Source: Sulfurovum sp. FS08-3
Lineage (GTDB): Bacteria; Campylobacterota; Campylobacteria; Campylobacterales; Sulfurovaceae
Assembly (NCBI GenBank): GCA_000830175.1
Contig: JQIS01000033.1
Location: 1 to 32,106 of the forward strand
DNA: 32,106 bases
Reading direction: 5' to 3'
A model generated the notes under the pieces. That model was given only the letters and a program-made list of their open reading frames with translations, made no database searches and was not told where the DNA came from. A program made the position numbers and the translations under genes. Below, piece after piece: positions 3,338-20,116 of this stretch (positions are counted from its first letter, which is position 1; every line of letters starts with the position of its first letter).

Positions 3338-5160
3338 ATCCTAGCAAGTTAGAGAGACTCCTCGAAGAGCTTTTGAAGCTAAAAAACGAGATACTCTTGC
3401 AAAGAGACGAAGAGCAAACGCATCTTTGGCAAAACAATCTTAGCGACTATGTGAATTTGCGTAACTTCAACCTAACCGCCATCCAAGAAGAGCTTACCTC
3501 AATAGGTCTCTCCTCTTTGGGGCGTTCGCAAACGTGCGTAATGAGTTCGATTCATCAAAATATCAAAATTCTCGAACAACTTTTGGGCAAACCCAGTAGC
3601 CTAGATGAGCATGACTATTTGGATTTCAAAAGTGCCAAAAAGATACTCAAACACAACGCCAAAATTTTTGGGACAAGTGATGGTGAACACTACAAAACCA
3701 AAGTCATGGTCACCTTGCCCTCAGAGGCTGCCCAATCCAATGAGCTTATCAAAGATCTCATCGCCCAAGATGTCTCCGTTTTGCGTATCAATACCGCACA
3801 CGATGATTTGGGTGCGTGGATAAAAATGGCTCTTTTTATCAAAGAACAAAACCAAAAACAAAACAAAGATACCAAAATTTATGTCGATTTAGCAGGTCCC
3901 AAAAACCGAACGGGTGAGTTTGAAAAAAACTTCACTCCCTTTAAAATAGGCTCAAAAAAAGTTGAAGTTGAAGTTGAAATTCTACCCCAAAGCCATCAAG
4001 GTGCTTTGACCCAAGAGAACTCAAACACCAAAAACAACGACGCAAGTGCCACGCTTGTCGTAGAAGATGATTTCTATTTGCGTTGTCGTGACAAGTGGCA
4101 CACTATCAAAATCATGGACAATCAAAAACAAAAACTCCACGTCTTTGTGCTTCATAAAGATAAAAAACGCCTCACCATTCGCCCCAACAAAAAGATTTCG
4201 ATTGATGCTTACACTACGCTCTATTCCCCCAAAGAGAAACGTTTAAGCCAACTTCACAATTTACGCTACGAAGAGAGTGCGGTGTGTCTTTTTCAAAACG
4301 ATGAGATTATTTTGACTCCTCACAAACAAATAGCTCAAAAAGATTTTGTCTATGAATCCAAAACCTATGCTGCCATTGTGGAGTGTTCCAACAAAGAGAT
4401 ATTTGAGTACATCAAGCTTGAAGATAGCATCTTTATTGATGATGGCAAGATTGGAGCTATTGTAACCCAAAAGCTTCCTATTGGAGTCGTACTGAAGATT
4501 ACTTTGGCAAAAGCTACGGGTACTTTGCTCAAAGCCCAAAAAGGGATTAATTTCCCCAATACCCATTTGGATATTTGTGCTATTACCCATGAAGATAAAA
4601 AAAATCTCTTTGGTGTCATTGATTTTGCCGATCTCATTGGTATCTCCTTTGCCCAAAGTGCCAAAGATATAGAGATAGTGCAACAAATACTCGACCACAA
4701 AGGCAAAGAACACATCGCCATAGTCCCCAAGATTGAGACCAAAAGAGGCGTGAAAAACCTCCCCTCTATCTTAACACAACTTCTCAAACGTCCCAACTAT
4801 GGCGTGATGATAGCAAGGGGGGATTTGGCGATTGAGGTAGGATTTGACAACCTGCCTTATATCCAAGAGGAGATTTTTGATATTTGCGAATCGGCTTTGG
4901 TGCCTGTGATTTACGCTACGCAAATCCTTGAGGGCAAAATGAAAAACAATCTCCCTACACGAGCGGAGGTTATTGACGCTGCTTTTGCCCAAAGAGCCGA
5001 TTGTATTATGCTCAACAAAGGTCCTTTTGTGGTCGATACCGTCATAATACTCAAAAAGATTCTGCACTCCATGCACCTCATCTACGAGAAGAATCGACAA
5101 CTCTTAAATATCTCTACCACATGGAGTAGTGATAATCAAAATGAAAGGATAGAAATATGA
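3334..5160 (+). CDS. Pyruvate kinase-like protein with N-terminal extension and no C-terminal domain
   Basis: The core matches pyruvate kinase, which makes pyruvate and ATP from phosphoenolpyruvate and ADP. Visible are the substrate/K+ segment RINTAH (151-156), VDLAGPKNRTG (from 184), the active-site VPKIETKRG with Lys466 and Glu468, MIARGDLAIEV, ATQIL and PTRAEVIDAAFA. At 608 aa it differs from the usual ~470-aa enzyme. About 115 extra residues precede the barrel, the B domain region (about 190-400) is enlarged, and the protein ends soon after MLNKGPF, where SGETA is usual. The C-terminal effector domain is therefore missing. Two K+-site positions differ from the classic enzyme: Ser to Ala155 and Thr to Leu186. 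It overlaps pfkA and the next gene by 4 bp each. Pyruvate kinase is the best call, with unusual regulation and cation use inferred. Confidence 0.85.
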   Translation: MNPSKLERLLEELLKLKNEILLQRDEEQTHLWQNNLSDYVNLRNFNLTAIQEELTSIGLSSLGRSQTCVMSSIHQNIKILEQLLGKPSSLDEHDYLDFKSAKKILKHNAKIFGTSDGEHYKTKVMVTLPSEAAQSNELIKDLIAQDVSVLRINTAHDDLGAWIKMALFIKEQNQKQNKDTKIYVDLAGPKNRTGEFEKNFTPFKIGSKKVEVEVEILPQSHQGALTQENSNTKNNDASATLVVEDDFYLRCRDKWHTIKIMDNQKQKLHVFVLHKDKKRLTIRPNKKISIDAYTTLYSPKEKRLSQLHNLRYEESAVCLFQNDEIILTPHKQIAQKDFVYESKTYAAIVECSNKEIFEYIKLEDSIFIDDGKIGAIVTQKLPIGVVLKITLAKATGTLLKAQKGINFPNTHLDICAITHEDKKNLFGVIDFADLIGISFAQSAKDIEIVQQILDHKGKEHIAIVPKIETKRGVKNLPSILTQLLKRPNYGVMIARGDLAIEVGFDNLPYIQEEIFDICESALVPVIYATQILEGKMKNNLPTRAEVIDAAFAQRADCIMLNKGPFVVDTVIILKKILHSMHLIYEKNRQLLNISTTWSSDNQNERIEI

Positions 5161-7640
5161 AAGCAATTGTTTTAGCTGGTGGTTTTGGAACACGTATCCA
5201 ACCCCTTACCAACTCAATACCCAAACCGATGTTACCCATTTTAAATCGACCCATGATGGAGCATACTATTATTAAGCTCCGAGATGAGTTGGGCATTACC
5301 CAAATAGCTGTTTTACTCTACTTTAAGCCCGATATTATCAAAAATCACTTTGGCGATGGCAAAGATTTGGGAGTAGAGATTACCTACTATCTGCCTGATG
5401 ATGATTACGGTACAGCGGGGGCGGTTGCGTTTGCACGAGAGTTTTTGGATGAGACGTTTATTATTGTAAGCGGCGATTTGGTGACCAATTTTGATTTTAA
5501 AAAGATAGCCGATTTTCACCAACAAAAAAACTCACAACTTACTATCACACTCACATCGGTAGAAGATCCACTCCAATTTGGTGTGGTGATTGCCAATGAA
5601 GAGCATAGAATTGAAAAATTTTTAGAAAAGCCAAGCTGGGGCGAGGTCTTTAGCGACACGATTAATACGGGTATCTACATGATTGAACCTGAAATTTTAA
5701 ACTATATTCCTTACCGTGAAAATTTTGACTTTGCCAAAGACCTCTTTCCCAAATTGATGCGTGAAGATATACCCTTGTGGGGATTCTCGCTCCAAGGCTA
5801 CTGGAGAGACGTAGGCAATCCCGAGAGCTACCGAGATGTCTATAAAGATATTTTTGCCAAAGCAATCGATCTTCCTATCAAAGGCGAGATGAAGGTGTTT
5901 GACAAGGGAGTAGTCTATATGGAAGAGGGGGTAATCCTCCATGAAAAAATCCGTATCAAAGGCACGGTAATATTGGGCAAAAATGTAGAGATTGGTGAGG
6001 GTGTAACGCTTGAAAACTGCTCTATTGGTGATAATACAGTCGTCAAAAAACACTCCGAAATTCTCGATAGCGTTTTGTGGCACGATGTGCAAATAGGCTC
6101 CAAAGTCAAACTTCACAACGCCGTATTGTGCAACGACAACATCGTCAAAGATGAGGTCAAAGTGGCTTTTGGGGTGATTGTAGCGGAAAATTGTGAAATC
6201 AACAAAAAAGTCACCTTTGAGCGAGATGTCATTATGTGGCCCGATAAGATTATTGAACCCTCAGCCGTCGTAAGTACCAATGTCATTTGGGGTAACAAAT
6301 ACAAATCCTCCATCTTTGAAAACGGCGTGGTAATGGGTAGAACCAATATCGAACTTTCAGCTCAAATGTCCACCAAACTTGCCGAATCCTTTGGTTCTAT
6401 CTTGCCTGTAGGCTCATCGGTCTATATCTCACGAGATTATCACAACAGCTCACGAATGCTCAAACGTGCCTTTGTAAGCGGTATGCTCTCAACGGGTATC
6501 AATGTCATCAATCTCTTTAATATCCCCTCCAACGTTATGCGTCACGCCTTGCATCAAAACGAGAAAATTGCTGCGGGTATTCACTTTCGACAATCGGTCT
6601 ATGAACCTGAAATAACTGAAATTGTTTTTTCAACGCATGAGGGGCTTAGTATCGATACCAAATTGGCTCAATCGATTGAACGTATCTTCTTTAGAGAGAA
6701 CTTTAGACGGGTAAACTATCAAGATATTGGAGAGGTTTATGAAGATATGTTTGTCAAAGACCGCTACATTCAACGCCTCCAAAGCAATTTTCAAAAAAAT
6801 CAATTTGCCTCTAGTGAGCTTAGAATTGCCGTTGATATTATGCACGGTTCTACGGCTGATACCTATCCGCAAATTTTGCATGAATTAGGCATTGATAATA
6901 TTACTTTAAACGCCTACAAAAATGAAAAAGGGGGTGCGACCAATTTGGAACAATCGCAAGAGAATCTCCAAAAAATCGTCCAATCGCTCAATTTGGATTG
7001 CGGGATTATTATCTACCCCAACGGTCAAAAACTCCAACTTGTCGATGATAAAGGCAATTTGGTTTATGACTATATCTTGCTTTTGACAATACTTGAATTG
7101 CTCAATATCACAACCGATAAGCCTCTTAGAGCCTTACTCCCTGCATGGGCGCCTGATTTTATCAAGTATCCAAACATCGAAGTGGTGCGTGAAAAGTTTG
7201 GTAACTTCAAAGCCGATAATCTTCAAGAGTATGACCTTATCGCCGATACCGATGGGCATTTTGCCTTTAGTGAATTTGGACTCAACAAAGATGCTGTCTA
7301 TGCGAGTATCAAAGTCCTTGAACTGATTCAAAAATCGCAACAAAAAATCTCCAAAGTGATTAAAAGTTTGCCTGAATTTATCTTCCAAGGGGGCAATATT
7401 CCTTGTCCTAGCACCAAAAAGGGTAAAATCATGCGTAAATTCCTTGAAGATGGCAAAGATAAACGCACCTCTTCTGTCGATGGAGTCAAAATTTGGGTGA
7501 GCGATGAGGAGTGGATATTGATGGTACCCGACCAACACCAAGAGTATCTCAATCTCTACGTCCAAGCCGAAGATGCCAAAAGTGCGGGTAAAATATTCTA
7601 TCAATATCAAGACAAAATTGAGCAGTGGATTAGTGAATGA
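5157..7640 (+). CDS. Sugar-1-phosphate nucleotidyltransferase fused to degenerate phosphomannomutase domain
   Basis: The N-terminal domain (about 1-230) is a nucleotidyltransferase with LAGGFGTRIQPLTNSIPKPM, the nucleotide loop, SGDLVTNFDF (metal-binding Asp) and EKPSWGEVFSDTINTG. A hexapeptide-like beta-helix stretch (about 250-375) follows, rich in I-G-x-x-V/T repeats. The C-terminal part (about 380-827) resembles phosphomannomutase/phosphoglucomutase. The phosphoserine loop is replaced by GIHFRQS (474-480), and the metal loop DxDxDR is replaced by YPNGQKL (about 618-624), so mutase activity is unlikely. Such fusions are usually annotated as mannose-1-phosphate guanylyltransferase. In this glycogen cluster, which lacks glgC, it may instead supply ADP- or UDP-glucose to GlgA; that is inference. 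Its start overlaps the pyruvate kinase stop by 4 bp. Confidence 0.88.
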   Translation: MKAIVLAGGFGTRIQPLTNSIPKPMLPILNRPMMEHTIIKLRDELGITQIAVLLYFKPDIIKNHFGDGKDLGVEITYYLPDDDYGTAGAVAFAREFLDETFIIVSGDLVTNFDFKKIADFHQQKNSQLTITLTSVEDPLQFGVVIANEEHRIEKFLEKPSWGEVFSDTINTGIYMIEPEILNYIPYRENFDFAKDLFPKLMREDIPLWGFSLQGYWRDVGNPESYRDVYKDIFAKAIDLPIKGEMKVFDKGVVYMEEGVILHEKIRIKGTVILGKNVEIGEGVTLENCSIGDNTVVKKHSEILDSVLWHDVQIGSKVKLHNAVLCNDNIVKDEVKVAFGVIVAENCEINKKVTFERDVIMWPDKIIEPSAVVSTNVIWGNKYKSSIFENGVVMGRTNIELSAQMSTKLAESFGSILPVGSSVYISRDYHNSSRMLKRAFVSGMLSTGINVINLFNIPSNVMRHALHQNEKIAAGIHFRQSVYEPEITEIVFSTHEGLSIDTKLAQSIERIFFRENFRRVNYQDIGEVYEDMFVKDRYIQRLQSNFQKNQFASSELRIAVDIMHGSTADTYPQILHELGIDNITLNAYKNEKGGATNLEQSQENLQKIVQSLNLDCGIIIYPNGQKLQLVDDKGNLVYDYILLLTILELLNITTDKPLRALLPAWAPDFIKYPNIEVVREKFGNFKADNLQEYDLIADTDGHFAFSEFGLNKDAVYASIKVLELIQKSQQKISKVIKSLPEFIFQGGNIPCPSTKKGKIMRKFLEDGKDKRTSSVDGVKIWVSDEEWILMVPDQHQEYLNLYVQAEDAKSAGKIFYQYQDKIEQWISE

Positions 7641-7841: not shown

Positions 7842-9932
7842 ATGGATATACAGATGAAAAAACTCTATCTTGCCTTTTTGTGGCATATGCACCAGCCTTA
7901 TTATAAGGATTCACAAGCCAATGCTACGCTTATGCCGTGGGTGTTTTTGCACACCATCAAAGACTACTACGATATGCCGTGGTATCTTAGCAAACACCCT
8001 ACCATTAAGGCTACCTTTAATCTTGTCCCTTCGCTTCTTGAGCAGATTCAAAGCTATTGCCAAGACAAATCAAAAGATAGGCTTATTACTACCCTAAAAT
8101 ACGATACAACCTCACTCAACCAAAACGATTTGACCCTTTTGGAGAACTATATCTTTGCTGCTAATGTCGATCAAATGATCAAACCCTTAAGTCGCTACCA
8201 TGAACTCTACCTTAAATATGTTGGCAACGAGCGAACACTCAAAAGTTTTTCACACGCCGAAATACTCGATACGCAAGTCCTTTTTTTGCTCAGTTGGTGC
8301 GGCAACTACCTGCGTCAAAATTCTCGTATTGTTCAAGAGTTTTTGGCACAAGGGAGAGGATTTAGTCATATCCAAAAAACCCAACTTATTGATGCGCTTT
8401 TGAACTTCATGGAAAAAGTGATTCCCTACTACAAAAATCTAAGCACCAAAAAACAAATCGCCATCTCAACCACCCCTTACTATCACCCTATCTTACCGCT
8501 TTTGATAGATCGCAAAAGTGCCAAAGAGGCAAAAGCGAGTGTTGTATTGCCCAGAAGCGAAGCCTCCTACCAAGAGTATGCTACGTTGAATATGAGCCAT
8601 GCTATCAAGCTCTACGAGGAGCTGTTTGCTCAAAAACCCAAAGGCATTTGGCCCTCCGAAGGGAGTGTAAGCAAAGCTACTCTTGATCTTTTGATTGATA
8701 AGGGAATTGAGTGGGTGTGCAGCGATGAGGCGATTTTGTTTAAAAGCCTCAAAAACATTCATCGAAACGAACTCTTCAAGCCCTATCGCTACACCTCCAA
8801 AGAGGGCAAAAGTATCCATCTCTTCTTTAGAGACCACTATTTAAGCGATTTGATAGGCTTTGAGTACTCACGCAAAGACCCCAAAGAGGCAGCAAGGCAC
8901 TTTGTCGAGCATCTACGCAACATCTACCTAAGCGGACACGATTCGATGTTGGTTTCGATTATTTTAGATGGCGAAAACGCATGGGAGTTCTATCCCAACA
9001 ACGCCATGGATTTTTTTGATGCTTTGTATGCGATGTTGGCACAAGAGGAGTGGTGTCAAACGCTCTTGTACGATGAGATTGATGAGTATCCCCAACTTGG
9101 CGTTGGCTCTCTTGATACGATTGCGAGTGGGAGTTGGATTAATGGTAATTTTGATATATGGATAGGTAGTCGTGACAAAAATTTGGCGTGGGAGTTGCTT
9201 GATGGTACTAAAAATCTCTACGATAGGCTCAAAAATAGCTTTGATGCAACCACACAAGCCAAAATAGATGAAGAGTTTATGATTGCTTTGGGAAGCGATT
9301 GGTTTTGGTGGTATGGCGATGATCACTTCACCGCTTACGCTTCGCAGTTTGATGAGCAATTTCGAGGGCATCTTAAAAACATCTATCTTTTAATGGGCGA
9401 AAGTGTCCCCTCGCAAATCTTTGCCCCCATTGTAACCCAAAACAAAACGCAGTGTTTTCATATCGCCCCCCAAGACTACATCGCACCTCAAATCAATGGC
9501 AATACCAACAACTTCTACGAGTGGCTCAATAGTGGCTACATAGACCTCAGGCGGGAGCTTAGCACCATGAGTACGACGCTTTTTATTGAGGAGGTTTTGT
9601 ATGGCAAAGATAGAGACCACTCTCTCTATTTTGCCTTTAGGGGCAAAAAGCTAAAAAATATTAGTGAGGATACGCTATTGATACTCTATTGCGACGACAA
9701 AGTCTTTCGAGTGCCTATTAGCAAGGGTATTAGCGAGATGATAAGCAACACCAAAAAGATTGTGGTTGGCTATGAAAATATTATAGAAATCTCAATCCAT
9801 GAGTGTTTCTTGCACAAATCAAAATTTTCATGCGAACTTATCGTAGATGGAAAAGTTGAGCAAAAATCCCCACTCTATGAGGACGTAGTCCTAAGCTTTG
9901 AGAATTTTAATTTACAAAAATGGTACATATAA
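7842..9932 (+). CDS. Glycoside hydrolase family 57 protein (alpha-amylase/glucanotransferase type)
   Basis: GH57 enzymes act on alpha-1,4-glucans as amylases, 4-alpha-glucanotransferases or branching enzymes. The 696-aa protein starts with the region-1 motif FLWHMHQPYY. GIWPSEGSV holds the likely nucleophile Glu273, and ILDGENAWEFYP holds the likely acid/base Asp376. FWWYGDDHFTAYASQFDEQF, near residue 490, is a conserved segment of this subgroup, and the last ~190 residues form a beta-rich extension. There is no signal peptide, so it acts on internal glycogen or maltodextrin. The start is not certain: ATG 7842 has no clear ribosome site, and ATG 7854 (MKKLYLAF) is equally possible. It follows the hairpin repeat element and is probably still within the metabolic operon. 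Amylase versus transferase activity cannot be settled here. Confidence 0.88.
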   Translation: MDIQMKKLYLAFLWHMHQPYYKDSQANATLMPWVFLHTIKDYYDMPWYLSKHPTIKATFNLVPSLLEQIQSYCQDKSKDRLITTLKYDTTSLNQNDLTLLENYIFAANVDQMIKPLSRYHELYLKYVGNERTLKSFSHAEILDTQVLFLLSWCGNYLRQNSRIVQEFLAQGRGFSHIQKTQLIDALLNFMEKVIPYYKNLSTKKQIAISTTPYYHPILPLLIDRKSAKEAKASVVLPRSEASYQEYATLNMSHAIKLYEELFAQKPKGIWPSEGSVSKATLDLLIDKGIEWVCSDEAILFKSLKNIHRNELFKPYRYTSKEGKSIHLFFRDHYLSDLIGFEYSRKDPKEAARHFVEHLRNIYLSGHDSMLVSIILDGENAWEFYPNNAMDFFDALYAMLAQEEWCQTLLYDEIDEYPQLGVGSLDTIASGSWINGNFDIWIGSRDKNLAWELLDGTKNLYDRLKNSFDATTQAKIDEEFMIALGSDWFWWYGDDHFTAYASQFDEQFRGHLKNIYLLMGESVPSQIFAPIVTQNKTQCFHIAPQDYIAPQINGNTNNFYEWLNSGYIDLRRELSTMSTTLFIEEVLYGKDRDHSLYFAFRGKKLKNISEDTLLILYCDDKVFRVPISKGISEMISNTKKIVVGYENIIEISIHECFLHKSKFSCELIVDGKVEQKSPLYEDVVLSFENFNLQKWYI

Positions 9933-9945
9933 GGCAGGAGAGAGC

Positions 9946-10938
9946 GTGTCAGAATTTAGATATTGCAAATTTACCCAAGAGTGGACACTTTTTGCCCCCG
10001 AACGGCTTAAGCGTCCTATCTATTTCACCCCGCAACACACTTTGCGAAAAGAGGAGGAGGAGTGTCCTTTTGATAGAGGCAAAGAGGAATATACCCCCCA
10101 TGAAATTGACCGAATTGATCAAAAAGGTGAGTGGCAATGCCGAGTTGTCCCCAATCTCTACAACGCACTCTCTATTGATTATGCCCCCTCATCGAGCAAA
10201 GATTACTACTTTGAAAAAATGAGCGGTTTTGGAGCGCATGAGATTATTATCGAAACACCTCATCATCATAAACAAATATGGGATTACGACTACAATGAGT
10301 TTGTCAATTACCTTACGATTATCCAAAAACGCCTCACAAGTCTCAAAAACGATAAACGCCTTGCCCATTTGAGCATCTTCAAAAACCAAGGCGAAAATGC
10401 AGGGGCTTCACTCTATCACTCCCATACGCAGATTATGGCACTGCCCTATATCTCTTCGCAACTGGCTCACTTGATTGAGTACAAAAAAGCCTACTACAAA
10501 AAACACAAAAGAGCCTTTTTGGATGATTTGCTCTACGAAGAGCAGCAATACGGCAAAAATATTATTATCGAAAACAGCGATTTTTTGGTCTTTTGTCCCT
10601 ACGCTTCGCAACACGCTTTTCAAGTGAAAATTGTAGCCAAAAAGAGGCTCTCGTCGCTTATTGAATTTGAGCCCAATCATATTGCGTCGCTCAGTGATAT
10701 ACTCCATGAGTTTTTTAAAAAATTTCACAAAGCATTGGGCGAGGTTTCATTTAATATGATTATCAAAAACGCCCCCTATCGTGACTACTCATCCACCACA
10801 AAAGAGTACTATCGCTTTTATATTGATATAATTCCTCGGATTTACAAGATAGCAGGATTTGAGCTTGATAGCAATATCCATATCAACGTCGTTATGCCCG
10901 ATAAGGCAGCAAAAACCTACAAGGAGGGTTACGAATGA
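9946..10938 (+). CDS. GalT-family hexose-1-phosphate nucleotidylyltransferase
   Basis: This 330-aa protein belongs to the HIT-superfamily GalT group, which transfers a nucleotide between sugar-1-phosphates through a histidine intermediate. The active-site motif is HSHTQ at 158-162, with His160 as nucleophile, preceded by NQGENAGAS. TPHHHKQ supplies the expected zinc histidine. The N-terminal zinc motif CPxC is reduced to Cys40-Pro-Phe-Asp43, so one ligand is lost. GTG 9946 is chosen as the start because AGGAGAG lies just upstream; a TTG further upstream would overlap the GH57 gene. It overlaps glgA by 4 bp. The glycogen setting makes ADP-glucose phosphorylase or UDP-glucose/hexose-1-P transfer both plausible, and galT itself is not proven. 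Confidence 0.85.
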   Translation: MSEFRYCKFTQEWTLFAPERLKRPIYFTPQHTLRKEEEECPFDRGKEEYTPHEIDRIDQKGEWQCRVVPNLYNALSIDYAPSSSKDYYFEKMSGFGAHEIIIETPHHHKQIWDYDYNEFVNYLTIIQKRLTSLKNDKRLAHLSIFKNQGENAGASLYHSHTQIMALPYISSQLAHLIEYKKAYYKKHKRAFLDDLLYEEQQYGKNIIIENSDFLVFCPYASQHAFQVKIVAKKRLSSLIEFEPNHIASLSDILHEFFKKFHKALGEVSFNMIIKNAPYRDYSSTTKEYYRFYIDIIPRIYKIAGFELDSNIHINVVMPDKAAKTYKEGYE

Positions 10939-12362
10939 ACATACTATTTGCAGCAAGTGAGATATTTCCTTACGCCAAAAGCGGCGGTTTAGCCGATGTC
11001 GCACACGCTTTGCCCGATGCTTTACGCAAGATAAAACACACCGTCTATACCATCATGCCACTCTACAATGTCGTCGATAGAGCCAAATACAAGATTGTTT
11101 TTAGCGGCCTTAGTTTTGACTACTGGCTTAGGGGAGTCCGTCACCAATTTGACCTCTTTCACAGCGAAGATGCTCCCCATGATCTCTTTGTTTACAATCC
11201 TATCATTTGCGATAGAATGGGGCTTTATCACGATGCCAATGGAGAGTTTGGAGATAATGGTTTGCGTTTTGGACTCTTTAGCTACGCCGTGCTTGAGGTG
11301 ATGATTCGCCAAAAACTCAACATTGAGGTTATACATATTAACGATTGGCAAAGTGCTTTGGTGGCATTGCTTATCAAGACACGCTACAAGCTTGATACAA
11401 GAACCATTCTTACCATTCACAATCTTGCCTATCAAGGGATATTCTCCAAAGAACTCATGTACGATTTGGAGATTGATTGGGAGAAGTGTTTTAAGCCTGA
11501 GGGGTTGGAGTATTACGATAGTGTAAACTTTCTCAAAGCAGGAATTTTTTACAGTGATGTTGTGACGACAGTAAGCAAAACCTACGCCCACGAGATACAA
11601 ACCCCGCTTTTTGGGTATGGACTAGACAGTGTTTTAAGGCTCAATAGCCATAAGCTAGTAGGTATCGTAAACGGTATAAGTACCGAAATTTACGATCCCC
11701 AAAAAGATAAAGATTTAGCCAAAAACTTCTCAATCAAACGCTACAAAGGCAAAAGTGATAATAAAATTGCTCTGTGTGAGGAGCTTGGATTGCCCCACCC
11801 TTTGCGACCGCTCTTTATTTTTATTGGACGCTTCACCTCGCAAAAGGGAGTCGATTTGCTCCTTGATGGTCTCAATCTCTTCAAAGATTTTGAAGCCAAT
11901 TTTATCATTTTGGGAAGCGGTGAGGAGTACTACAATCACCGTTTTGCTGTTTTGGCACACAACTTTAGCAATATTCACATTGAGGTACGCTACGATGAGG
12001 CATTGAGCCATAGACTCTATGCTAGTGCCGATTTTTTGTTGATGCCCTCCACCTTTGAGCCGTGCGGACTCAATCAAATGATAGCTATGCGTTACGGAAC
12101 ATTGCCCATTGTCTCCAAAACAGGCGGGTTGCACGATACCGTCACCGATTTTACCGATGCTCTTGATATCCAAAACACTCAAGGCATTGGCATTACCTTT
12201 AGCCAACACAATCTCTATTGGTTGCTTCACGCCATAGCCAAGGCTCTTTCGCTCTATGCCAACAGTGAGAAGTTTAAAGCCCTCTCCAAACACAATATGG
12301 AAGTTGATAACTCATGGAAACTCTCAGCTCATGAGTATGTCAAACTCTATCAAGGGGCGTAG
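10935..12362 (+). CDS. glgA: Glycogen synthase (GT5)
   Basis: GlgA adds glucose from ADP-glucose (or UDP-glucose) to the non-reducing end of alpha-1,4-glucan. The 475-aa length is standard. The start MNILFAASEIFPYAKSGGLADV contains the nucleotide-sugar motif KSGGL (15-19). IGRFTSQKGVDLL marks the second Rossmann domain, and STFEPCGLNQMIAMRYG with KTGGLHDTV carries the catalytic Glu and phosphate-binding region. The start overlaps the GalT-like gene by 4 bp, and the stop is directly followed by the glucokinase start. No glgC is present in the window, so the donor must come from the fused nucleotidyltransferase or from elsewhere in the genome. Confidence 0.97.
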   Translation: MNILFAASEIFPYAKSGGLADVAHALPDALRKIKHTVYTIMPLYNVVDRAKYKIVFSGLSFDYWLRGVRHQFDLFHSEDAPHDLFVYNPIICDRMGLYHDANGEFGDNGLRFGLFSYAVLEVMIRQKLNIEVIHINDWQSALVALLIKTRYKLDTRTILTIHNLAYQGIFSKELMYDLEIDWEKCFKPEGLEYYDSVNFLKAGIFYSDVVTTVSKTYAHEIQTPLFGYGLDSVLRLNSHKLVGIVNGISTEIYDPQKDKDLAKNFSIKRYKGKSDNKIALCEELGLPHPLRPLFIFIGRFTSQKGVDLLLDGLNLFKDFEANFIILGSGEEYYNHRFAVLAHNFSNIHIEVRYDEALSHRLYASADFLLMPSTFEPCGLNQMIAMRYGTLPIVSKTGGLHDTVTDFTDALDIQNTQGIGITFSQHNLYWLLHAIAKALSLYANSEKFKALSKHNMEVDNSWKLSAHEYVKLYQGA

Positions 12363-13193
12363 GTGATTTTGGCTATTGATTACGGAGGGAGTAACTTTCG
12401 CTTTCAATTAGACAGACATCCCATTGTAGCTCTTGAGACGCAAAGTGTCGATTTGATGCTCTTTTTGGAGGAGATGATAGCACAATACCCTATCGAGAGT
12501 ATCGCTATCTCCTTTGCAGGGCAAGTACGCAATGGGGTGATTCTATCAGCTCCCAATATCGCTTTGCACAATCTTCCCATTCAAAAAATTATCGAGGAGC
12601 GTTACGCTACTCCTTTGGTTATTGACAACGATCTAAAGTGTGCCGCCCTCTACGAAGCCTCTTTTGATCCTCATGCCAATACACTAGCTGTACTCTATAT
12701 CGGGACAGGTTTTGGAGGGGCTTTGGTGCATCAAGGCAAGATTATTGGAGGAGCCAACAACTTCGCAGGGGAGATTGGTCATACGCCTTTTCGTGCGACT
12801 CCTTTTGTGTGCGGATGCGGTCGAAACGACTGTTTGGAGCTTAGTTTAAGCGGCAAAGCGTTGGAGCTATGGTCGGAGCATTACGGATTGGAATTGGAGG
12901 AATTTAGGCTAGAGGATATTAAATCGAAACCAAAAGGTGATACAATACACCGAAACTTTTTGGATGCTTTAGAGCATTCGTTTTTGACACTATTGAGTCT
13001 CTTTGATCCCGATAGATTTATCTATGGGGGGAGCGTGATGCAAAACAATCCACATTTGATAGGCTTTTTAAAAGAGTGCTATGAACAAAGTCCTTTTAGG
13101 AGAGTACGAAAAGCTCCAAAGATTGAGCTAAGTATCTCCAAAGAGGGTTGCCTTGAGGGCGCTAAATTATTACTAAAACAGGAGAAAAAATGA
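12363..13193 (+). CDS. glk: ROK-family glucokinase
   Basis: The 276-aa protein should phosphorylate glucose to glucose-6-phosphate using ATP. The N-terminus LAIDYGGSNFRFQLD is the phosphate-1 motif. IDNDLKCAAL contains the catalytic Asp, and YIGTGFGGALV is the phosphate-2 loop. GEIGHTPF with CGCGRNDCLE forms the ROK zinc site. The GTG start at 12363 immediately follows the glgA stop, and the TGA overlaps the ATG of the next gene, so translation is probably coupled. ROK proteins can also be repressors, but there is no DNA-binding domain here. Free glucose released by the GH57 or phosphorylase-linked pathway would be recaptured by this enzyme. Sugar specificity is inferred from context. Confidence 0.92.
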   Translation: MILAIDYGGSNFRFQLDRHPIVALETQSVDLMLFLEEMIAQYPIESIAISFAGQVRNGVILSAPNIALHNLPIQKIIEERYATPLVIDNDLKCAALYEASFDPHANTLAVLYIGTGFGGALVHQGKIIGGANNFAGEIGHTPFRATPFVCGCGRNDCLELSLSGKALELWSEHYGLELEEFRLEDIKSKPKGDTIHRNFLDALEHSFLTLLSLFDPDRFIYGGSVMQNNPHLIGFLKECYEQSPFRRVRKAPKIELSISKEGCLEGAKLLLKQEKK

Positions 13194-14869
13194 AAAAACA
13201 TCTACACAGTTACACGATAGATAAAAAATATTCCAAAAGCGTTGCCTACTTTTCGATGGAGTTTGCTATCCATCAAGCGCTTAAGATTTACTCAGGCGGA
13301 TTAGGATTTTTGGCAGGTTCGCATATGCGCAGTGCTTACGATTTGCAACAAAATATTTTGGGTGTTGGAATTTTATGGAGCTACGGCTATTACGACCAAG
13401 AGCGAGACGAAGACCGCAATTTGGTAGCCAAATTTCGACGTAAACGCTACTATTTTTTAGAAGATACAGGCATTAGCGTCACGGTCAATATCAACGGCAA
13501 AAATGTAGTGGTTAAAGCTTTGTTGTTGCCTAGTGAGACCTTTAGTACTGCTCCTATGTTGCTTCTTACAACCGATGTGGAGGAGAATGATTATCTCTCT
13601 CGTACCATTACCCACAAGCTCTACGACCACAATACCGAAACCCGTATCGCTCAAGAGATTGTTTTGGGTATTGGCGGTGTCAAAGTCCTTGAAGCACTCG
13701 AACAAACTATCGAAATCTATCACATGAATGAGGGACACTCCTTGCCTATGGTTTTTGAACTTATGCACAAATACAAAGATATTGAGCAAGTTCGTCAAAA
13801 AGTAGTCTTCACCACCCATACACCCGAAAAAGCAGGAAACGAAGAACACGATATTCATTTGTTGTGCAAAATGGGCTTTTTTAATTCACTCCCACTCGAA
13901 ACCGTACGAGAGATTACGGGGATTTATGGAGATATGTTTAGCTTGACGGTAGGGGCTTTGAAACTAGCCAAAATTGCCAATGCAGTATCCAAAATCCATT
14001 GCGATGTCTCCAATAAAATGTGGTCACACATTGAGGGGCGTTGTCCTATCACCTACATTACCAACGCACAAAATCGACGCTATTGGGCGGATAAAGGACT
14101 TCTTAAAGCACTTGATGAGCATGAGGATTATGAACTAGAGGCTCGCAAAAAGCACCTTAAGCGTATGCTCTTTGTTGAAGTAGCCAACCAAACGGGCAAG
14201 ATGTTTGATCCCAATGTTCTTACTATCGTATGGGCAAGACGTTTTGCGGAGTATAAGCGTCCAGGATTGCTCAAATACGACTTAGAGCGTTTTGAGCGTT
14301 TTGTAAACAATGCTAAGTATCCCGTACAGCTTATTTGGGCAGGTAAGCCCTATCCTTTTGATACCCAAGCGATTAATCTCTTCAATGAACTCAACTACAT
14401 CTCTCGAAGCTACAAAAATGTAGCGGTATTGGTAGGGTATGAGTTGGGACTTTCGATGCTGCTCAAAAAAGGGGCTGATGTGTGGCTCAATACCCCTAGA
14501 ATTACAAGGGAAGCGAGTGGGACAAGCGGTATGAGTGCAGCAATGAATGGTGCTATCAATCTCTCCGTTGCCGATGGGTGGCATCCTGAATACAGCATCG
14601 AAGAGGTAAACTCTTTCACCATTGCACCCGTTTCAAGCGAACTCTCTATCGATGAACAAGATCGTATGGACAACGAAAACTTGATGAATATTTTGGAAAA
14701 TCAAGTCGCTCCTATCTACTACGACAATCAAGAGCGTTGGATAGAGATGATGAAACGCTCTTTGACCGATGTAATACCCGCTTTTGATTCGGGACGTATG
14801 GCACACCAATACTACAACAAAATGTACATTATTGAGCGAGATATTGGGGAAGCGCCTCGTGTTTTATAA
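13190..14869 (+). CDS. GT35 alpha-glucan phosphorylase-like protein lacking the PLP lysine
   Basis: Phosphorylases of this family release glucose-1-phosphate from alpha-glucans using pyridoxal phosphate. The 559-aa protein is a short family version. Visible are SVAYFSMEFA, YSGGLGFLAGSH, GVGILWSYGYYDQ, HMNEGHSLP, TTHTPEKAGN and WARRFAEYKRPGLL, where the Arg and Lys match the phosphate-site pair. The cofactor segment reads EASGTSGMSAAMNG (441-454). Ser449 (codon AGT at 14534) sits where active phosphorylases have the lysine forming the PLP Schiff base. It may therefore be inactive as a phosphorylase, or use another mechanism as a glycosyltransferase or glucan-binding regulator. It overlaps glk by 4 bp, and mgtE follows after 22 bp. 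The fold assignment is firm and the activity is open. Confidence 0.9.
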   Translation: MKKHLHSYTIDKKYSKSVAYFSMEFAIHQALKIYSGGLGFLAGSHMRSAYDLQQNILGVGILWSYGYYDQERDEDRNLVAKFRRKRYYFLEDTGISVTVNINGKNVVVKALLLPSETFSTAPMLLLTTDVEENDYLSRTITHKLYDHNTETRIAQEIVLGIGGVKVLEALEQTIEIYHMNEGHSLPMVFELMHKYKDIEQVRQKVVFTTHTPEKAGNEEHDIHLLCKMGFFNSLPLETVREITGIYGDMFSLTVGALKLAKIANAVSKIHCDVSNKMWSHIEGRCPITYITNAQNRRYWADKGLLKALDEHEDYELEARKKHLKRMLFVEVANQTGKMFDPNVLTIVWARRFAEYKRPGLLKYDLERFERFVNNAKYPVQLIWAGKPYPFDTQAINLFNELNYISRSYKNVAVLVGYELGLSMLLKKGADVWLNTPRITREASGTSGMSAAMNGAINLSVADGWHPEYSIEEVNSFTIAPVSSELSIDEQDRMDNENLMNILENQVAPIYYDNQERWIEMMKRSLTDVIPAFDSGRMAHQYYNKMYIIERDIGEAPRVL

Positions 14870-14891: not shown

Positions 14892-16238
14892 ATGAATCTC
14901 AAAGCCGTCGATCTCTACATCAAAAAAATCAACAACGGGCATACTCCCTCCGTGAAAGTTGAGGATGCCGATGTAGCCGATTATCTTGAAAGTGTCAAAC
15001 GAGAGGATGAGAAACGCTTTGTGGAGTATCTCAACTCTTTGCCCACTCAACTCAAAGCCAAAACTTTTTTGGAGTTACCCTATGTCTATCAAGTTGAGAT
15101 TATCGAGCAAGACTCTCCAGAAGAACTTGCCAAACTCATTGAGGTTTTGGAGAGCGATGATGCTACCGACCTTATCCAAGCTATCGCAACGGTTAGTAAA
15201 ACCAAAGAGGAAGAGGTCTTTGGACTCCTAAGCGACAAAAAACAACAAACCATAGAACAGCTTATTCACTATCCCGAAAATCAAGCGGGATCGCTCATGC
15301 AAACGGAGCTTTTGAAAGTAGAGGTGAGCCAAACCATTGAGAGTTGTTTGGAGCAACTAAGAGCCTTAAAAGAGCGAGGGGTGAGCCACATCTACTATCT
15401 CTTTGTCGTCGATAGCCACAATAAATTGCTCACAACTATTGGCATGGATGATTTGATTTTGGAGAAGATGGAGGCTACTTTTGCACAAATTATCGACAAA
15501 TATCCTACCCCTCACGCCATTACCTCACACGATAGCATCGATAGCGTCTTAAACAAAATTGAAAAATACGACATATCCTCTTTGCCTGTAGTTGATAGAA
15601 TGGGGCATCTTATTGGACGTATTACCCACGATGATATTGTTGATACCATGCAAGAGAGTGCTACCAAACAAATCTATGCCTTAAGCAAAATCCATCAAAG
15701 TGAAGAGTTAGAGGATACCTATGTAAATGTCACCAAGAGCCGTGCAATATGGCTGTTTATAAATCTCATCAATGTCACTATCGCTTCTGTAGTCATTGGT
15801 ATGTTTGAAGAGAGCATTCATCAAATTGTTGCGTTGGCGATACTCATGCCAATCGTTGCCAATATGGCAGGAAGTGCGTCGGTACAAACCATGACGGTTA
15901 CGGTTCGTCAAATGGCAATAGGTAAACTTGATCTCAATAATCTCAAACCTGTCTTCATCAAAGAGATGAAAGTAGCTTTAGGTAATGGATTGATTTTTGG
16001 TTCTATCGCTTCGATGGTTACACAGATACGCTTTGATGATGTTTTTATTTCCATTTCAATGGGATTGGCGATGTTATTGAGCATTACAATGGCTGGTATG
16101 TTGGGAACTTTGACCCCTGTTTTAATCAAAAAAGCCAATTACGACCCCGCTATTGCCAGTTCAGTTATTGTCTTAACGCTTATAGATATTATAGGTTTTT
16201 TTAGTTTTCTTTGGTTTGCAACCATAATTGTATTATAA
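14892..16238 (+). CDS. mgtE: Magnesium transporter MgtE
   Basis: MgtE is a homodimeric inner-membrane Mg2+ channel gated by its own cytoplasmic Mg2+ sensors. The 448-aa length matches the family. An MgtE N domain (about 30-130) is followed by two CBS domains (about 135-250, the second ending GRITHDDIVDTM). Five membrane helices lie between about 280 and 448. The pore-region motif MPIVANMAGSASVQTMTV and the late-helix Asp in LIDIIGFFSFLWFAT are conserved. It lies 22 bp after the phosphorylase-like gene with a weak AAAGG ribosome site. A Mg2+ channel inside a sugar operon is unusual. Kinases and mutases here need Mg2+, so a supply role is possible but speculative. Confidence 0.95.
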   Translation: MNLKAVDLYIKKINNGHTPSVKVEDADVADYLESVKREDEKRFVEYLNSLPTQLKAKTFLELPYVYQVEIIEQDSPEELAKLIEVLESDDATDLIQAIATVSKTKEEEVFGLLSDKKQQTIEQLIHYPENQAGSLMQTELLKVEVSQTIESCLEQLRALKERGVSHIYYLFVVDSHNKLLTTIGMDDLILEKMEATFAQIIDKYPTPHAITSHDSIDSVLNKIEKYDISSLPVVDRMGHLIGRITHDDIVDTMQESATKQIYALSKIHQSEELEDTYVNVTKSRAIWLFINLINVTIASVVIGMFEESIHQIVALAILMPIVANMAGSASVQTMTVTVRQMAIGKLDLNNLKPVFIKEMKVALGNGLIFGSIASMVTQIRFDDVFISISMGLAMLLSITMAGMLGTLTPVLIKKANYDPAIASSVIVLTLIDIIGFFSFLWFATIIVL

Positions 16239-16258
16239 TAGTAAAAAAGGAGGAAAAA

Positions 16259-17872
16259 ATGTCACATCACGCCAACGCAGGAAAAATAGCCCCCAAGGAG
16301 ATATTGGAAAATATTGCCAATCTCATTAGCGATTACTATATCCAAAAGCCCGATAGAGACAATCAAGCCCACGCAGTTGCCTTTGGTACATCGGGACATC
16401 GAGGCAGTTCAAGCCAAAAAAGCTTTAATGAAGCCCATATTTTAGCCATGACACAAGCCGTAGCAGAGTACCACAAAGCCCAAGGACACGACAAGCTTTT
16501 TATCGGGATGGATACCCACGCACTCTCCACACCCGCTCATAGAAGTGCTATAGAGGTACTCGTTGCCAATGGCATTACTACCTATTACGCCGCAGATTTT
16601 GACTACACTCCCACGCCCGTTATCTCCCATGCTATCTTGACACATCCCAATAGCGACGGGATTGTCATTACCCCTTCTCACAACCCTCCAAGCGATGGAG
16701 GCTTTAAATACAACGCCACCGACGGGGGTCCTGCGGATGTAGCCATTACCGACCTTATTCAAGCAAGAGCCAATGCTATTTTGGAAAATGACCTTGTAGA
16801 GGTGAAACGTATCGCTTACGAAGAGGCTTTGCGTAGTGAGTATTTGGTAGCTTACGATTTTATTACTCCCTATGTAGAGGATTTGCAACACATCATTGAT
16901 ATGGAGGCTATTGCACAATCTGGTATCAAAATCGGTGCCGATGCCATGGGAGGTTCGGGACTCAACTACTACCGTGCTATCAAAGAGCGTTACGGTCTTA
17001 ATATGGAGATTTTTCACGACAGTGTCGATTTTACCTTCTCTTTTATGCACTGCGACAAAGATGGCAAAATCCGAATGGATTGCTCTAGTCCCTACGCTAT
17101 GGCGGGACTCATTGAGATGAAAAACCACTACGATATTGCTTTTGGTAACGATACCGATTTTGATAGACACGGGATTGTAACGCCCAGTCATGGGCTTATG
17201 AATCCCAATCACTATCTTGCCGTAGCCATTGATTATCTCCTCAAAACAAGGGATTTTAAAAGCATGGGCGTAGGCAAGACGCTCGTAAGCAGTTCTATGA
17301 TTGATAGGGTCGTTGCTAGTCATGGAGCTAAACTCTTTGAAACCCCTGTAGGATTTAAATGGTTTGTCAAGCCCCTAATGGAGGGTGAGATATTCTTTGG
17401 AGGTGAAGAGAGTGCGGGTGCGAGTTTCTTGCGTAAAAACGCTCAAGTGTGGAGTACCGACAAAGATGGTATCATTCTCAATCTTTTAGCAGCAGAAATT
17501 TTAGCTACCACAGGCAAAGACCCCGCCCTTCACTATCAAGAATTGACGCAAAAATTTGGCACACCGCTCTATGCTCGAATGGATGCCCCCGCCAATAGTG
17601 AACAAAAAAAGCTACTCAAAAACCTTCAAGCTAGTGATATAACGCAAACCACTCTAGCCCAAGAGCCTATCACCTCCATCCTCACCAAAGCCGATAACGG
17701 TTACGCCATTGGAGGATTAAAGGTCAATAGCGCCAACGGTTGGTTTGCCATTCGACCCTCGGGAACAGAAGATGTTTATAAAATTTATGCTGAGAGTTTT
17801 ATCTCCCCAGAGCATCTAGCCGCAATTCAAGCCGATGCTCAAACGATAGCCACAAAAATTTTTGAAAAATAG
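16259..17872 (+). CDS. pgm: Phosphoglucomutase (alpha-D-glucose phosphate-specific)
   Basis: The enzyme interconverts glucose-1-phosphate and glucose-6-phosphate, joining the glycogen and glycolytic halves of this cluster. The 537-aa protein is E. coli Pgm-like in length and motifs. It has AFGTSGHRGSS near the N-terminus, VITPSHNPPSDGGFKYN with the phosphorylated serine, and GNDTDFDRHGIVTPS with the Mg2+-binding DxDxDR pattern. It also has FFGGEESAGASF for sugar binding and RPSGTEDVYKIYAE for the phosphate site. All catalytic motifs are intact, unlike the mutase domain of the upstream fusion. ATG 16259 is chosen because a strong AAGGAGG lies 6 bases upstream; an earlier in-frame start would overlap mgtE. 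Confidence 0.97.
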   Translation: MSHHANAGKIAPKEILENIANLISDYYIQKPDRDNQAHAVAFGTSGHRGSSSQKSFNEAHILAMTQAVAEYHKAQGHDKLFIGMDTHALSTPAHRSAIEVLVANGITTYYAADFDYTPTPVISHAILTHPNSDGIVITPSHNPPSDGGFKYNATDGGPADVAITDLIQARANAILENDLVEVKRIAYEEALRSEYLVAYDFITPYVEDLQHIIDMEAIAQSGIKIGADAMGGSGLNYYRAIKERYGLNMEIFHDSVDFTFSFMHCDKDGKIRMDCSSPYAMAGLIEMKNHYDIAFGNDTDFDRHGIVTPSHGLMNPNHYLAVAIDYLLKTRDFKSMGVGKTLVSSSMIDRVVASHGAKLFETPVGFKWFVKPLMEGEIFFGGEESAGASFLRKNAQVWSTDKDGIILNLLAAEILATTGKDPALHYQELTQKFGTPLYARMDAPANSEQKKLLKNLQASDITQTTLAQEPITSILTKADNGYAIGGLKVNSANGWFAIRPSGTEDVYKIYAESFISPEHLAAIQADAQTIATKIFEK

Positions 17873-17880
17873 GAGAGAGT

Positions 17881-18537
17881 ATGAATGAAAACAATAAATA
17901 TTTAATTAAAGAGAGTATTCAAAAAGATAGTTTTTCCAGTGCCACCCACACCATGGATACGATGGCACAAGAGATTCCCAAGGAGGGCATTAGAGAGTAC
18001 CCTATTCCTAGTCGCTACTACAAAGATAGAGTGACGTTGTTGCCCGTCAATCAATCCAAATACTACCTCTATTGGGAGATTACCGATGAGACGCTTCACA
18101 AACACGGTATTGATTTAAACTCCCAGCAACTCCATTTTGAAATCTACGATGCCAAAGGTATGGTTTTTAGCCTTAGCTCCTCTTTTTCGGTGAGTGAATA
18201 CTTCATCAAAGGAGTCTTTGAAGAACGCATCATCTATGCCAAAGCGGGATTTATGGAAGATGGGATATTTAAGGAGCTTTTGGCTTCGCAACCCATCCAC
18301 ACCTTCACCTCGCAAATCAATCTACCCGCCGATAATGATGAGATATGGATGCGTAGAGGTAGCGTATGGAGTGAGTTGGTACACGCCTCCACAACGCATC
18401 TTGAATTTAGCGGCTCATCGGCAAAATACATCAAAGAGCTGGAGCGTTTACGCTTTTTGACTCGAATGGCTCAAGAGAGCTTTGGTGTAGGCTCAAGTGC
18501 TATGAGTCCATTGCACAAAGGGGGCAATCATGATTAA
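17881..18537 (+). CDS. DUF4912 domain protein
   Basis: A 218-aa soluble protein with no signal peptide. The stretch KDRVTLLPVNQSKYYLYWEITDE (starting near residue 43) is the start of a DUF4912 domain, predicted to be a beta-sandwich. The last 60 residues look less ordered. The gene starts 8 bp after pgm with AGGAGAG in front and overlaps the next gene by 8 bp. DUF4912 genes are recurrently found next to GH57 branching enzymes, as here. A role as carbohydrate-binding or adaptor partner of the branching enzyme is inference from this linkage and the beta-sandwich appearance. No catalytic residues are recognised. Confidence 0.82.
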   Translation: MNENNKYLIKESIQKDSFSSATHTMDTMAQEIPKEGIREYPIPSRYYKDRVTLLPVNQSKYYLYWEITDETLHKHGIDLNSQQLHFEIYDAKGMVFSLSSSFSVSEYFIKGVFEERIIYAKAGFMEDGIFKELLASQPIHTFTSQINLPADNDEIWMRRGSVWSELVHASTTHLEFSGSSAKYIKELERLRFLTRMAQESFGVGSSAMSPLHKGGNHD

Positions 18538-20116
18538 AGGCTATTGGATTCCGATTTTACATTCACATCTTCCGTTTGTCAAGCACCCCGAGTATGACAA
18601 TTTTTTGGAGGAGCATTGGCTCTTTGAGGCAATTACAGAGTGCTATATCCCCCTGCTAAGTCGCCTCAAAAAGCTCGAAAATGAGGGCGTTGAGTTTAGA
18701 TTGACCACCTCCATTACACCGCCTCTTGCTGAGATGCTTGATGATGCGCATTTGATGGGGAAATACACAAAATTTTTGGAGCGACAAATCGAACTAGGAG
18801 AAAAAGAGATTGCCCGTACCGCCCAAGAGGATCCTCATTTTCACAACAATGCGCTCTTTTACTACCACTTTTTCAAAGAGACCAAAGCCTTTTTTGATAC
18901 CGTTTTGCATGGAAATGTCCTCAACGGCTATCGCTATTTTTACAACAAAGGCTCATTGGAGGTGATTACCTGCGGTGCAACGCATGGATTTTTGCCCCTC
19001 TTGTGCGTCAATGAAAAAGCCGTAGAGGTGCAAATCGAAGTAGCTATCAAAGCACATCAAAAACACTTTCATCGAAACCCCAAAGGGATTTGGCTACCTG
19101 AATGTGCCTACTACGATGGATTGGATAGAATCTTAAAAAACAACGGTTTGGAGTTTTTCATCGTCGATTCTCACGCACTTGTCTATGCCACTCCAACAGC
19201 ACTGAACGGTGTCTATACGCCTGTCTATACCCCACACGGCGTAGCTGCCTTTGGACGTGATGGAGAGTCCTCAAAACAAGTATGGAGTTCCAAAGAGGGC
19301 TATCCTGGGGATGTTGATTACCGTGATTTCTACCGTGATATTGGATACGACCTTGATTATGATTACATCAAAGATTACATTAATCCCGATGGTCCACGAG
19401 TCTTTACGGGCTACAAATACCATAGAATTACAGGCAATAGCGACTACAAAGAGGCGTACGATCCCTTCATTGCATCGTGTCGCACCCAAGACCATGCCCG
19501 TGATTTTCACTTCAATAGAGAAAAACAAATCGAACATCTCTCACGCTATATGGATAGAACCCCTATGGTGGTTTCGCCCTACGATGCGGAACTCTTTGGA
19601 CATTGGTGGTTTGAAGGACCTGAATTTCTCTACAATCTCTTCAAAGAGATAGATAAACACAAAGTTATCAAGGCGATTACTCCGCTTGAATACCTCACGA
19701 TGTATCCTACCAATCAAGTCGTAAACCCCAACCCCTCCTCGTGGGGCGATCAAGGCTACTACGACGTATGGCTCAATGAGGGCAACTCGTGGATTTATCG
19801 TCACCTCCACGAGATGGCGGATAGAATGGGAGAGTATGCCTATACCTACCGTGATACTCACGATGGTAACAAGGTACGTCTGCTCAATCAAATGCTTCGA
19901 GAGTTGCTTTTGGCACAAAGCAGCGATTGGGCCTTTTTGGTCACTACGGCAACAGCGGCTCCCTACAGTATCAATCGAACCAAAGAGCATATTTTCAACT
20001 TCAATCAACTCACCAATATGCTCAACACCAACACGATAGATGGTGAACGATTGGCTTACCTAGAAGAGAAAAACTCTATTTTTAACTTTATTGATTATAA
20101 AATCTTTTTGCATTAA
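18530..20116 (+). CDS. GH57 1,4-alpha-glucan branching enzyme
   Basis: The 528-aa protein matches the GH57 branching-enzyme subgroup, which cuts alpha-1,4-chains and rejoins them through alpha-1,6 links. It begins IPILHSHLPFVKHPE, followed by LEEHWLFEAITECYIPLL, characteristic of this subgroup. GIWLPECAYYDGL contains the nucleophile Glu191, and VSPYDAELFGHWWFEGPEF contains the acid/base Asp352. A conserved SSWGDQGYYDVWLN lies after it. The C-terminal helical part follows, ending at residue 528. The start overlaps the DUF4912 gene by 8 bp. In a cluster without a GH13 GlgB it is the natural branching activity for glycogen. It is the last gene of the 19-kb plus-strand run. Confidence 0.93.
   Translation: MIKGYWIPILHSHLPFVKHPEYDNFLEEHWLFEAITECYIPLLSRLKKLENEGVEFRLTTSITPPLAEMLDDAHLMGKYTKFLERQIELGEKEIARTAQEDPHFHNNALFYYHFFKETKAFFDTVLHGNVLNGYRYFYNKGSLEVITCGATHGFLPLLCVNEKAVEVQIEVAIKAHQKHFHRNPKGIWLPECAYYDGLDRILKNNGLEFFIVDSHALVYATPTALNGVYTPVYTPHGVAAFGRDGESSKQVWSSKEGYPGDVDYRDFYRDIGYDLDYDYIKDYINPDGPRVFTGYKYHRITGNSDYKEAYDPFIASCRTQDHARDFHFNREKQIEHLSRYMDRTPMVVSPYDAELFGHWWFEGPEFLYNLFKEIDKHKVIKAITPLEYLTMYPTNQVVNPNPSSWGDQGYYDVWLNEGNSWIYRHLHEMADRMGEYAYTYRDTHDGNKVRLLNQMLRELLLAQSSDWAFLVTTATAAPYSINRTKEHIFNFNQLTNMLNTNTIDGERLAYLEEKNSIFNFIDYKIFLH

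Follow-up and report, generated by a model that had tools for sequence, protein, structure and literature searches.

A GT35 gene within a run of glycogen genes

The window analysed here is a stretch of 32,106 nucleotides from Sulfurovum sp. FS08-3, in which inspection and profile matches place the glycogen genes on one strand around a gene of family GT35. Upstream of this gene lie, in order, a nucleotidyltransferase-mutase fusion, a GH57 gene, a GalT-like gene, glgA and a ROK kinase gene. An MgtE-like gene follows it, past which the run continues with Pgm, DUF4912 and a GH57 branching enzyme. The genes, and the sites of interest in the GT35 gene, are listed below.

5157 to 7640, + strand: sugar-1-phosphate nucleotidyltransferase with a fused phosphohexomutase-like part (profile searches)
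7842 to 9932, + strand: GH57 enzyme
9898 to 10938, + strand: GalT-like protein whose closest match is Arabidopsis At5g18200 (PDB 1z84, E 3e-45)
10935 to 12362, + strand: GlgA, full-length GT5 glycogen synthase of 475 aa (TIGR02095, 505.9 bits, cut-off 328.45)
12363 to 13193, + strand: ROK-family sugar kinase, whose stop shares 4 bases with the GT35 start
13190 to 14869, + strand: short GT35 (TIGR02094) protein of 559 aa without the PLP lysine (open reading frame list, profile match)
14237 to 14260, + strand: RRFAEYKR, residues 350-357, with the phosphate-site Arg350, Arg351 and Lys356; invariant or nearly so in proteins with and without the lysine
14465 to 14467, + strand: Lys426 codon AAA, a clade-specific invariant lysine 4 residues past Ser422 on the same helix face
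14510 to 14533, + strand: EASGTSGM, residues 441-448, with Glu441 and the phosphate-binding Gly444-Thr445-Ser446-Gly447 turn; invariant in the clade
14534 to 14536, + strand: Ser449 codon AGT, at the position of the PLP-binding lysine (Lys680 of rabbit muscle phosphorylase; ungapped alignment)
14892 to 16238, + strand: MgtE-like protein, next downstream of GT35 (named by inspection)
16256 to 17872, + strand: phosphoglucomutase Pgm (TIGR01132, 790 bits)
18530 to 20116, + strand: GH57 glycogen branching enzyme (profile match)

The fusion at 5157-7640 occupies the place of glgC, carries hexapeptide repeats in its nucleotidyltransferase part and is possibly a bifunctional or regulatory AGPase. The GalT-like gene probably starts at the GTG at 9946, and its Arabidopsis relative is known as an ADP-glucose phosphorylase. 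An MgtE-like gene directly after GT35, inside the glycogen run, was seen in 3 of 62 loci.

The GT35 reading frame runs from the ATG at 13190 to the TAA at 14867-14869, and its product scores 460.4 bits against TIGR02094 (curated cut-off 191.7) and 53.8 bits against PF00343 (cut-off 27). GT35 phosphorylases are described as bearing PLP on a specific lysine (PMC12267944). The segment EASGTSGMSAAMNG of the product, which contains Ser449, pairs without gaps with EASGTSGEKAEMNG of the Segatella copri phosphorylase (PDB 9l6i) and likewise with EASGTSNMKFALNG of classical phosphorylases, and the PLP-carrying lysine is therefore replaced by serine.

A clade that lost the lysine once and rebuilt the pocket

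Relatives were drawn from 60 near genomes, from 84,980 species genomes that were scanned and from plasmids, and at the lysine site the distinct proteins collected have threonine in 88, serine in 41, alanine in 3 and lysine in 45. The Schiff-base lysine characteristic of GT35 is thus absent from all 132 distinct orthologues, found in Campylobacterota and Bacteroidota, and present in all 75 other family members collected (45 of TIGR02094 type and 30 nearer relatives), a division that chance would by no means produce. Identity to the Sulfurovum protein is at least 51% for the proteins without lysine and at most 39% for those with it, the latter including equally short proteins of Cyanobacteria, Proteobacteria and Chlamydiota. 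The preliminary description had placed Ser449 at the PLP-lysine position, where the 45 TIGR02094-type proteins all have lysine, and had supposed that similar substitutions might occur in other short bacterial GT35-like proteins; the first observation stands, and the second extends to a whole clade.

DNA-motif scans of 397 Campylobacterota and 395 Bacteroidota genomes were tallied by hand. In Campylobacterota 57 genomes had only genes with serine, threonine or alanine, 10 had both serine/threonine and lysine genes and 6 had lysine genes only. In Bacteroidota the counts were 42 with serine or threonine, at least 85 with lysine and none with both, the lysine count being a lower bound because some lysine-type genes lack the last Asn of the motif. 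Compared with a 97% identical relative, the GT35 gene has a dN/dS of 0.05 (dN 0.014, dS 0.28), and the neighbouring glgA one of 0.078; the GT35 gene is under strong purifying selection. A sequencing error, a pseudogene or a one-off mutation is ruled out by this ratio and by the same residue class in all orthologues.

Some relatives differ in setting or build. Short glgP genes on five plasmids (L186, L187, L188, L189 and L185) are mostly of lysine type, that of L185 being of threonine type, and their neighbours include the stress and metal genes CusA, merA, MerR, DUF1622, DUF2933 and type II GAPDH, which suggests a mobile stress-tolerance module. The Stanieria glgP at 4824-6689 of L186 encodes a lysine-type GT35 with a YHS domain fused to its N-terminus. 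In L227-L251, from the class of the Bacteroidota genome G667, the lysine of lysine-type GT35 proteins of about 680-830 aa (one reading frame is longer) is followed by HGG instead of MNG (EASGTSGQKVAVHGG).

A single branch (SH-aLRT 100) divides the proteins without lysine from all others in a tree of 116 proteins; among those without it, serine and threonine have been exchanged at least 9 times. A second tree, with six classical phosphorylases as the root, puts the clade (100/100) inside TIGR02094, nested among lysine-bearing proteins. A short lysine-bearing protein is its sister (98/96), and the clade members from Campylobacterota and those from Bacteroidota fall into two distinct groups. From this nesting it follows that the lysine is ancestral and was lost once, and it rules out the clade as a relic of an ancestor from before PLP was adopted.

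Along with K449, about 15 further sites in and around the cofactor site were switched and then became near-invariant: D44S, L54Q, G293A, V294Q, H295N, G347V, F348W, F383W, A387P, H388Y, D/N416G, D/G/N418E, A/G422S and V/T426K. The 15 diagnostic sites change all-or-none between proteins without and with the lysine. At almost every one of these sites the sister group and 25 further relatives have the old state, and no intermediates were found among these proteins. Left unchanged in the clade are Glu181, His183, His210, Asn292, Trp299, Arg350, Arg351, Tyr355, Lys356, Tyr417, Glu441, Gly444 and Thr445. The GT35 phosphate- and glucose-site residues (Arg351, Lys356, His210, Asn292, Glu441 and Thr445) are all invariant or nearly so, in keeping with the earlier remark that the RRFAEYKR motif is kept. 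As judged from the alignments, the remaining catalytic residues are invariant despite the lost lysine.

An AlphaFold2 model built from 49 clade sequences reached a mean pLDDT of 88.2 and a pTM of 0.88. Its nearest solved structures are those of the S. copri phosphorylase (9l6i and 20yr, TM 0.88-0.90, the higher value for 20yr), followed by other phosphorylases, and with the best PDB matches all phosphorylases the model predicts a GT-B phosphorylase fold.

A residue gained by the clade is Lys426, which all 120 readable members have and which occurs in neither the 44 lysine-type proteins nor the 30 nearer relatives. Ungapped alignment equates residues 418, 422 and 426 with rabbit phosphorylase 649, 653 and 657, of which we take 649 and 653 to be neighbours of PLP and 653 (Ser422 here) to contact it, and the model has all three on one face of a helix at 419-428. 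Lys426 would then stand one helical turn from a PLP contact, on what is presumably the very helix that touches PLP in the rabbit enzyme. The protein could accordingly still be a PLP phosphorylase, with the Schiff-base lysine moved along the pocket to Lys426 or with PLP held non-covalently. Retention of PLP would fit the conservation of Trp299, Tyr417 and the phosphate-binding residues, and phosphorylase requires the phosphate of PLP rather than its aldehyde chemistry. A mere lysine shift, however, would not need a change of the whole pocket (D44S, G293A/V294Q/H295N, G347V, F348W and F383W, and also A387P, H388Y and the changes to E418 and S422), and position 449 is even alanine in 3 proteins. 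We regard this explanation as unlikely. Of the original suggestion that the protein does not use PLP, the part concerning a Schiff base at 449 is well supported; its extension to the absence of PLP altogether is weakened by invariant Lys426 as a candidate.

Carriers of the gene and the function of its product

Of the 51 carrier genomes searched, 46 have no GT35 other than the clade gene, and Sulfurovum sp. FS08-3 itself has one GT35 by PF00343 and protein searches, so that the absence of another phosphorylase, first remarked for the cluster, holds genome-wide. With no second GT35 in those 46 genomes, the protein is in most carriers a paralogue of nothing, and the proposal of a regulatory paralogue is not supported. 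A lysine-type gene is also present in 5 of the 28 Campylobacterota carriers in the 51-genome set, and in 10 of 67 in the motif scan; in these few genomes the roles of the two types may differ.

A non-catalytic glucan binder that regulates or scaffolds glycogen metabolism would account for a residue regarded as essential having been lost, a binding role can also underlie strong conservation, and the ten Campylobacterota with both types would have a phosphorylase alongside it. A pure binder would, on the other hand, not require the other catalytic residues to be invariant across two phyla, and most carriers (46/51) have no other GT35. We consider such a role improbable.

A GT5 domain was found in 51 of 51 carrier genomes. 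About ten Bacteroidota carriers are without a clear full-length GlgA and mostly have a 270-residue N-terminal piece; nine of them are also without a GlgC over the cut-off, and G554 has one. Reading frames of about 270 aa with the N-terminal GT5 domain (PF08323) only, and hence without the nucleotide-binding half, occur in G424-G427, G429, G622 and other Bacteroidota carriers, often in genomes without full GlgA. Three Pontibacter genomes have GlgB and GH13 proteins of 1119 residues (or similar) and of 625-634 residues, which we read as TreS-maltokinase and GlgE, in agreement with a published Pontibacter GlgE locus (PMC11206854). By gene content, all carriers examined appear to make alpha-glucan, by GlgC/GlgA or, where no GlgC exceeds the cut-off, by GlgE-type genes. 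Since they differ in their glucan-making routes yet share the GT35 enzyme, a role in breakdown fits better than one in synthesis.

A synthetic or reversed role is implied if the protein is an NDP-glucose-dependent glucosyltransferase, whose PLP site is instead taken by the nucleotide of ADP- or UDP-glucose, as in other GT-B enzymes, and which elongates the glucan or runs in reverse. This has conceptual support in the proposal that PLP in GT35 is a surrogate for a nucleoside monophosphate (PMC11046441). The GT5 catalytic domain (PF08323) is matched, mostly weakly, by 26 of 49 clade members and by none of 6 short lysine-type proteins, and residues 415-418 resemble by inspection the GT5 GY adenine-stacking motif. 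The Sulfurovum protein itself has no match to PF08323 even at E<=1, which leaves it outside GT5, and in hhalign comparisons to GlgA the clade reached 29% against 96% for the lysine type at full length and 60% against 77% for the C-domain. Nearness to GT5, suggested by the weak Pfam matches, was rejected on this profile-profile comparison, in which the clade is no closer than the lysine type. Sulfurovum sp. FS08-3 has a complete GlgA as it is, the occurrence of the neighbouring ADP-glucose-phosphorylase-like gene does not follow that of the clade, and carriers such as Pontibacter have no GlgC over the cut-off, although UDP-glucose is still possible there. On balance a nucleotide-sugar enzyme seems rather improbable, if less so than a mere binder.

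All 35 Campylobacterota searched that have a GT35, of whichever type, also have the GalT-like gene, and in Bacteroidota carriers GalT is either distant or missing. The gene is thus no partner of the clade. A two-step phosphorolysis with its product (glucan and ADP to ADP-glucose, then to glucose-1-phosphate) was rejected on that ground.

Our preferred reading, to which we assign a probability of about 0.48, is that the clade protein is the working glucan phosphorylase of its cell and acts without covalent PLP. A GT35 branch would have given up covalently bound PLP and would still cleave glycogen at the non-reducing end by phosphate, releasing glucose-1-phosphate. The phosphate would be held by Arg350, Arg351, Lys356 and the Thr445-Gly447 turn, and in the remodelled pocket the job of the PLP 5'-phosphate may fall to side chains of the protein itself or to a second bound anion. 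Consistent with a phosphorylase of this kind are the single lysine loss with only small replacements, the roughly 15 co-fixed sites, the unchanged glucose, phosphate and acid-base residues, the purifying selection and the usual position as the only GT35 in genomes that appear to make alpha-glucan. The earlier guess of a glucan-active protein likewise gains from synteny and the retained catalytic residues. In Campylobacterota the clade gene often lies beside glycogen genes; no conserved neighbour was found in Bacteroidota loci, where the gene stands alone, and this would count against a phosphorylase. Cofactor-free phosphorolysis has a precedent in a Methanococcus maripaludis phosphorylase, reported as PLP-independent (PMC12267944), and is opposed by the role of the PLP phosphate in classical phosphorylases, where it is indispensable as a proton donor (PMC12267944). 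More broadly, we hold it about an even bet that this is a derived, cofactor-free GT35 branch of two phyla with a pocket rebuilt in one step, performing phosphorolysis by side chains or a second anion or having regained a nucleotide or nucleotide sugar.

Relation to known phosphorylases and synthases

A partial literature search, covering few subscription papers and preprints, found no published description of lysine loss in bacterial GT35. The new points are a loss that is derived and happened once, conservation in two phyla, a pocket that switched in concert, the exchange of a lysine at 449 for one at 426 and the sole-GT35 status. Because a large conserved branch is without the PLP lysine, its genes, annotated glgP via TIGR02094, misfit the textbook mechanism. 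Glycogen phosphorylase has long been thought to require its vitamin-B6 cofactor, and the bacteria of this branch may be able to degrade their stored sugar without it. With the clade, a sister group that retains the lysine and a set of switched residues to compare, the role of PLP in phosphorylase becomes testable; all three are also relevant to the idea that a nucleotide gave way to PLP as GT35 evolved (PMC11046441). If the branch is truly cofactor-free, it is a natural experiment in which PLP was removed from an enzyme that is alone among PLP enzymes in using just the phosphate.

The closest known systems are the TIGR02094 phosphorylases of S. copri (9l6i, 20yr), which share family, fold (TM 0.88-0.90) and catalytic residues with the clade. 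Unlike the clade they carry the PLP lysine (GTSGEKAEMNG), are without Lys426 and the other clade-specific residues, and have about 30% identity to the clade protein. Classical GlgP, MalP and rabbit muscle GP share the fold, the phosphate-site Arg/Lys and the EASGT segment, but have the lysine (EASGTGNMK), a length of about 800 aa and long branches that set them apart. GlgA of GT5 resembles the clade in its GT-B fold and in the overall Arg/Lys/Glu plan of the active site; it depends on ADP-glucose, and its profile similarity to the clade is no higher than to lysine-type GT35. MmGP of M. maripaludis (MMP1220; bioRxiv 2024.09.29.615707, cited in PMC12267944) is said to be a glycogen phosphorylase that acts without PLP. 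It is archaeal, and is likened to the clade by this reported PLP independence and not by sequence comparison.
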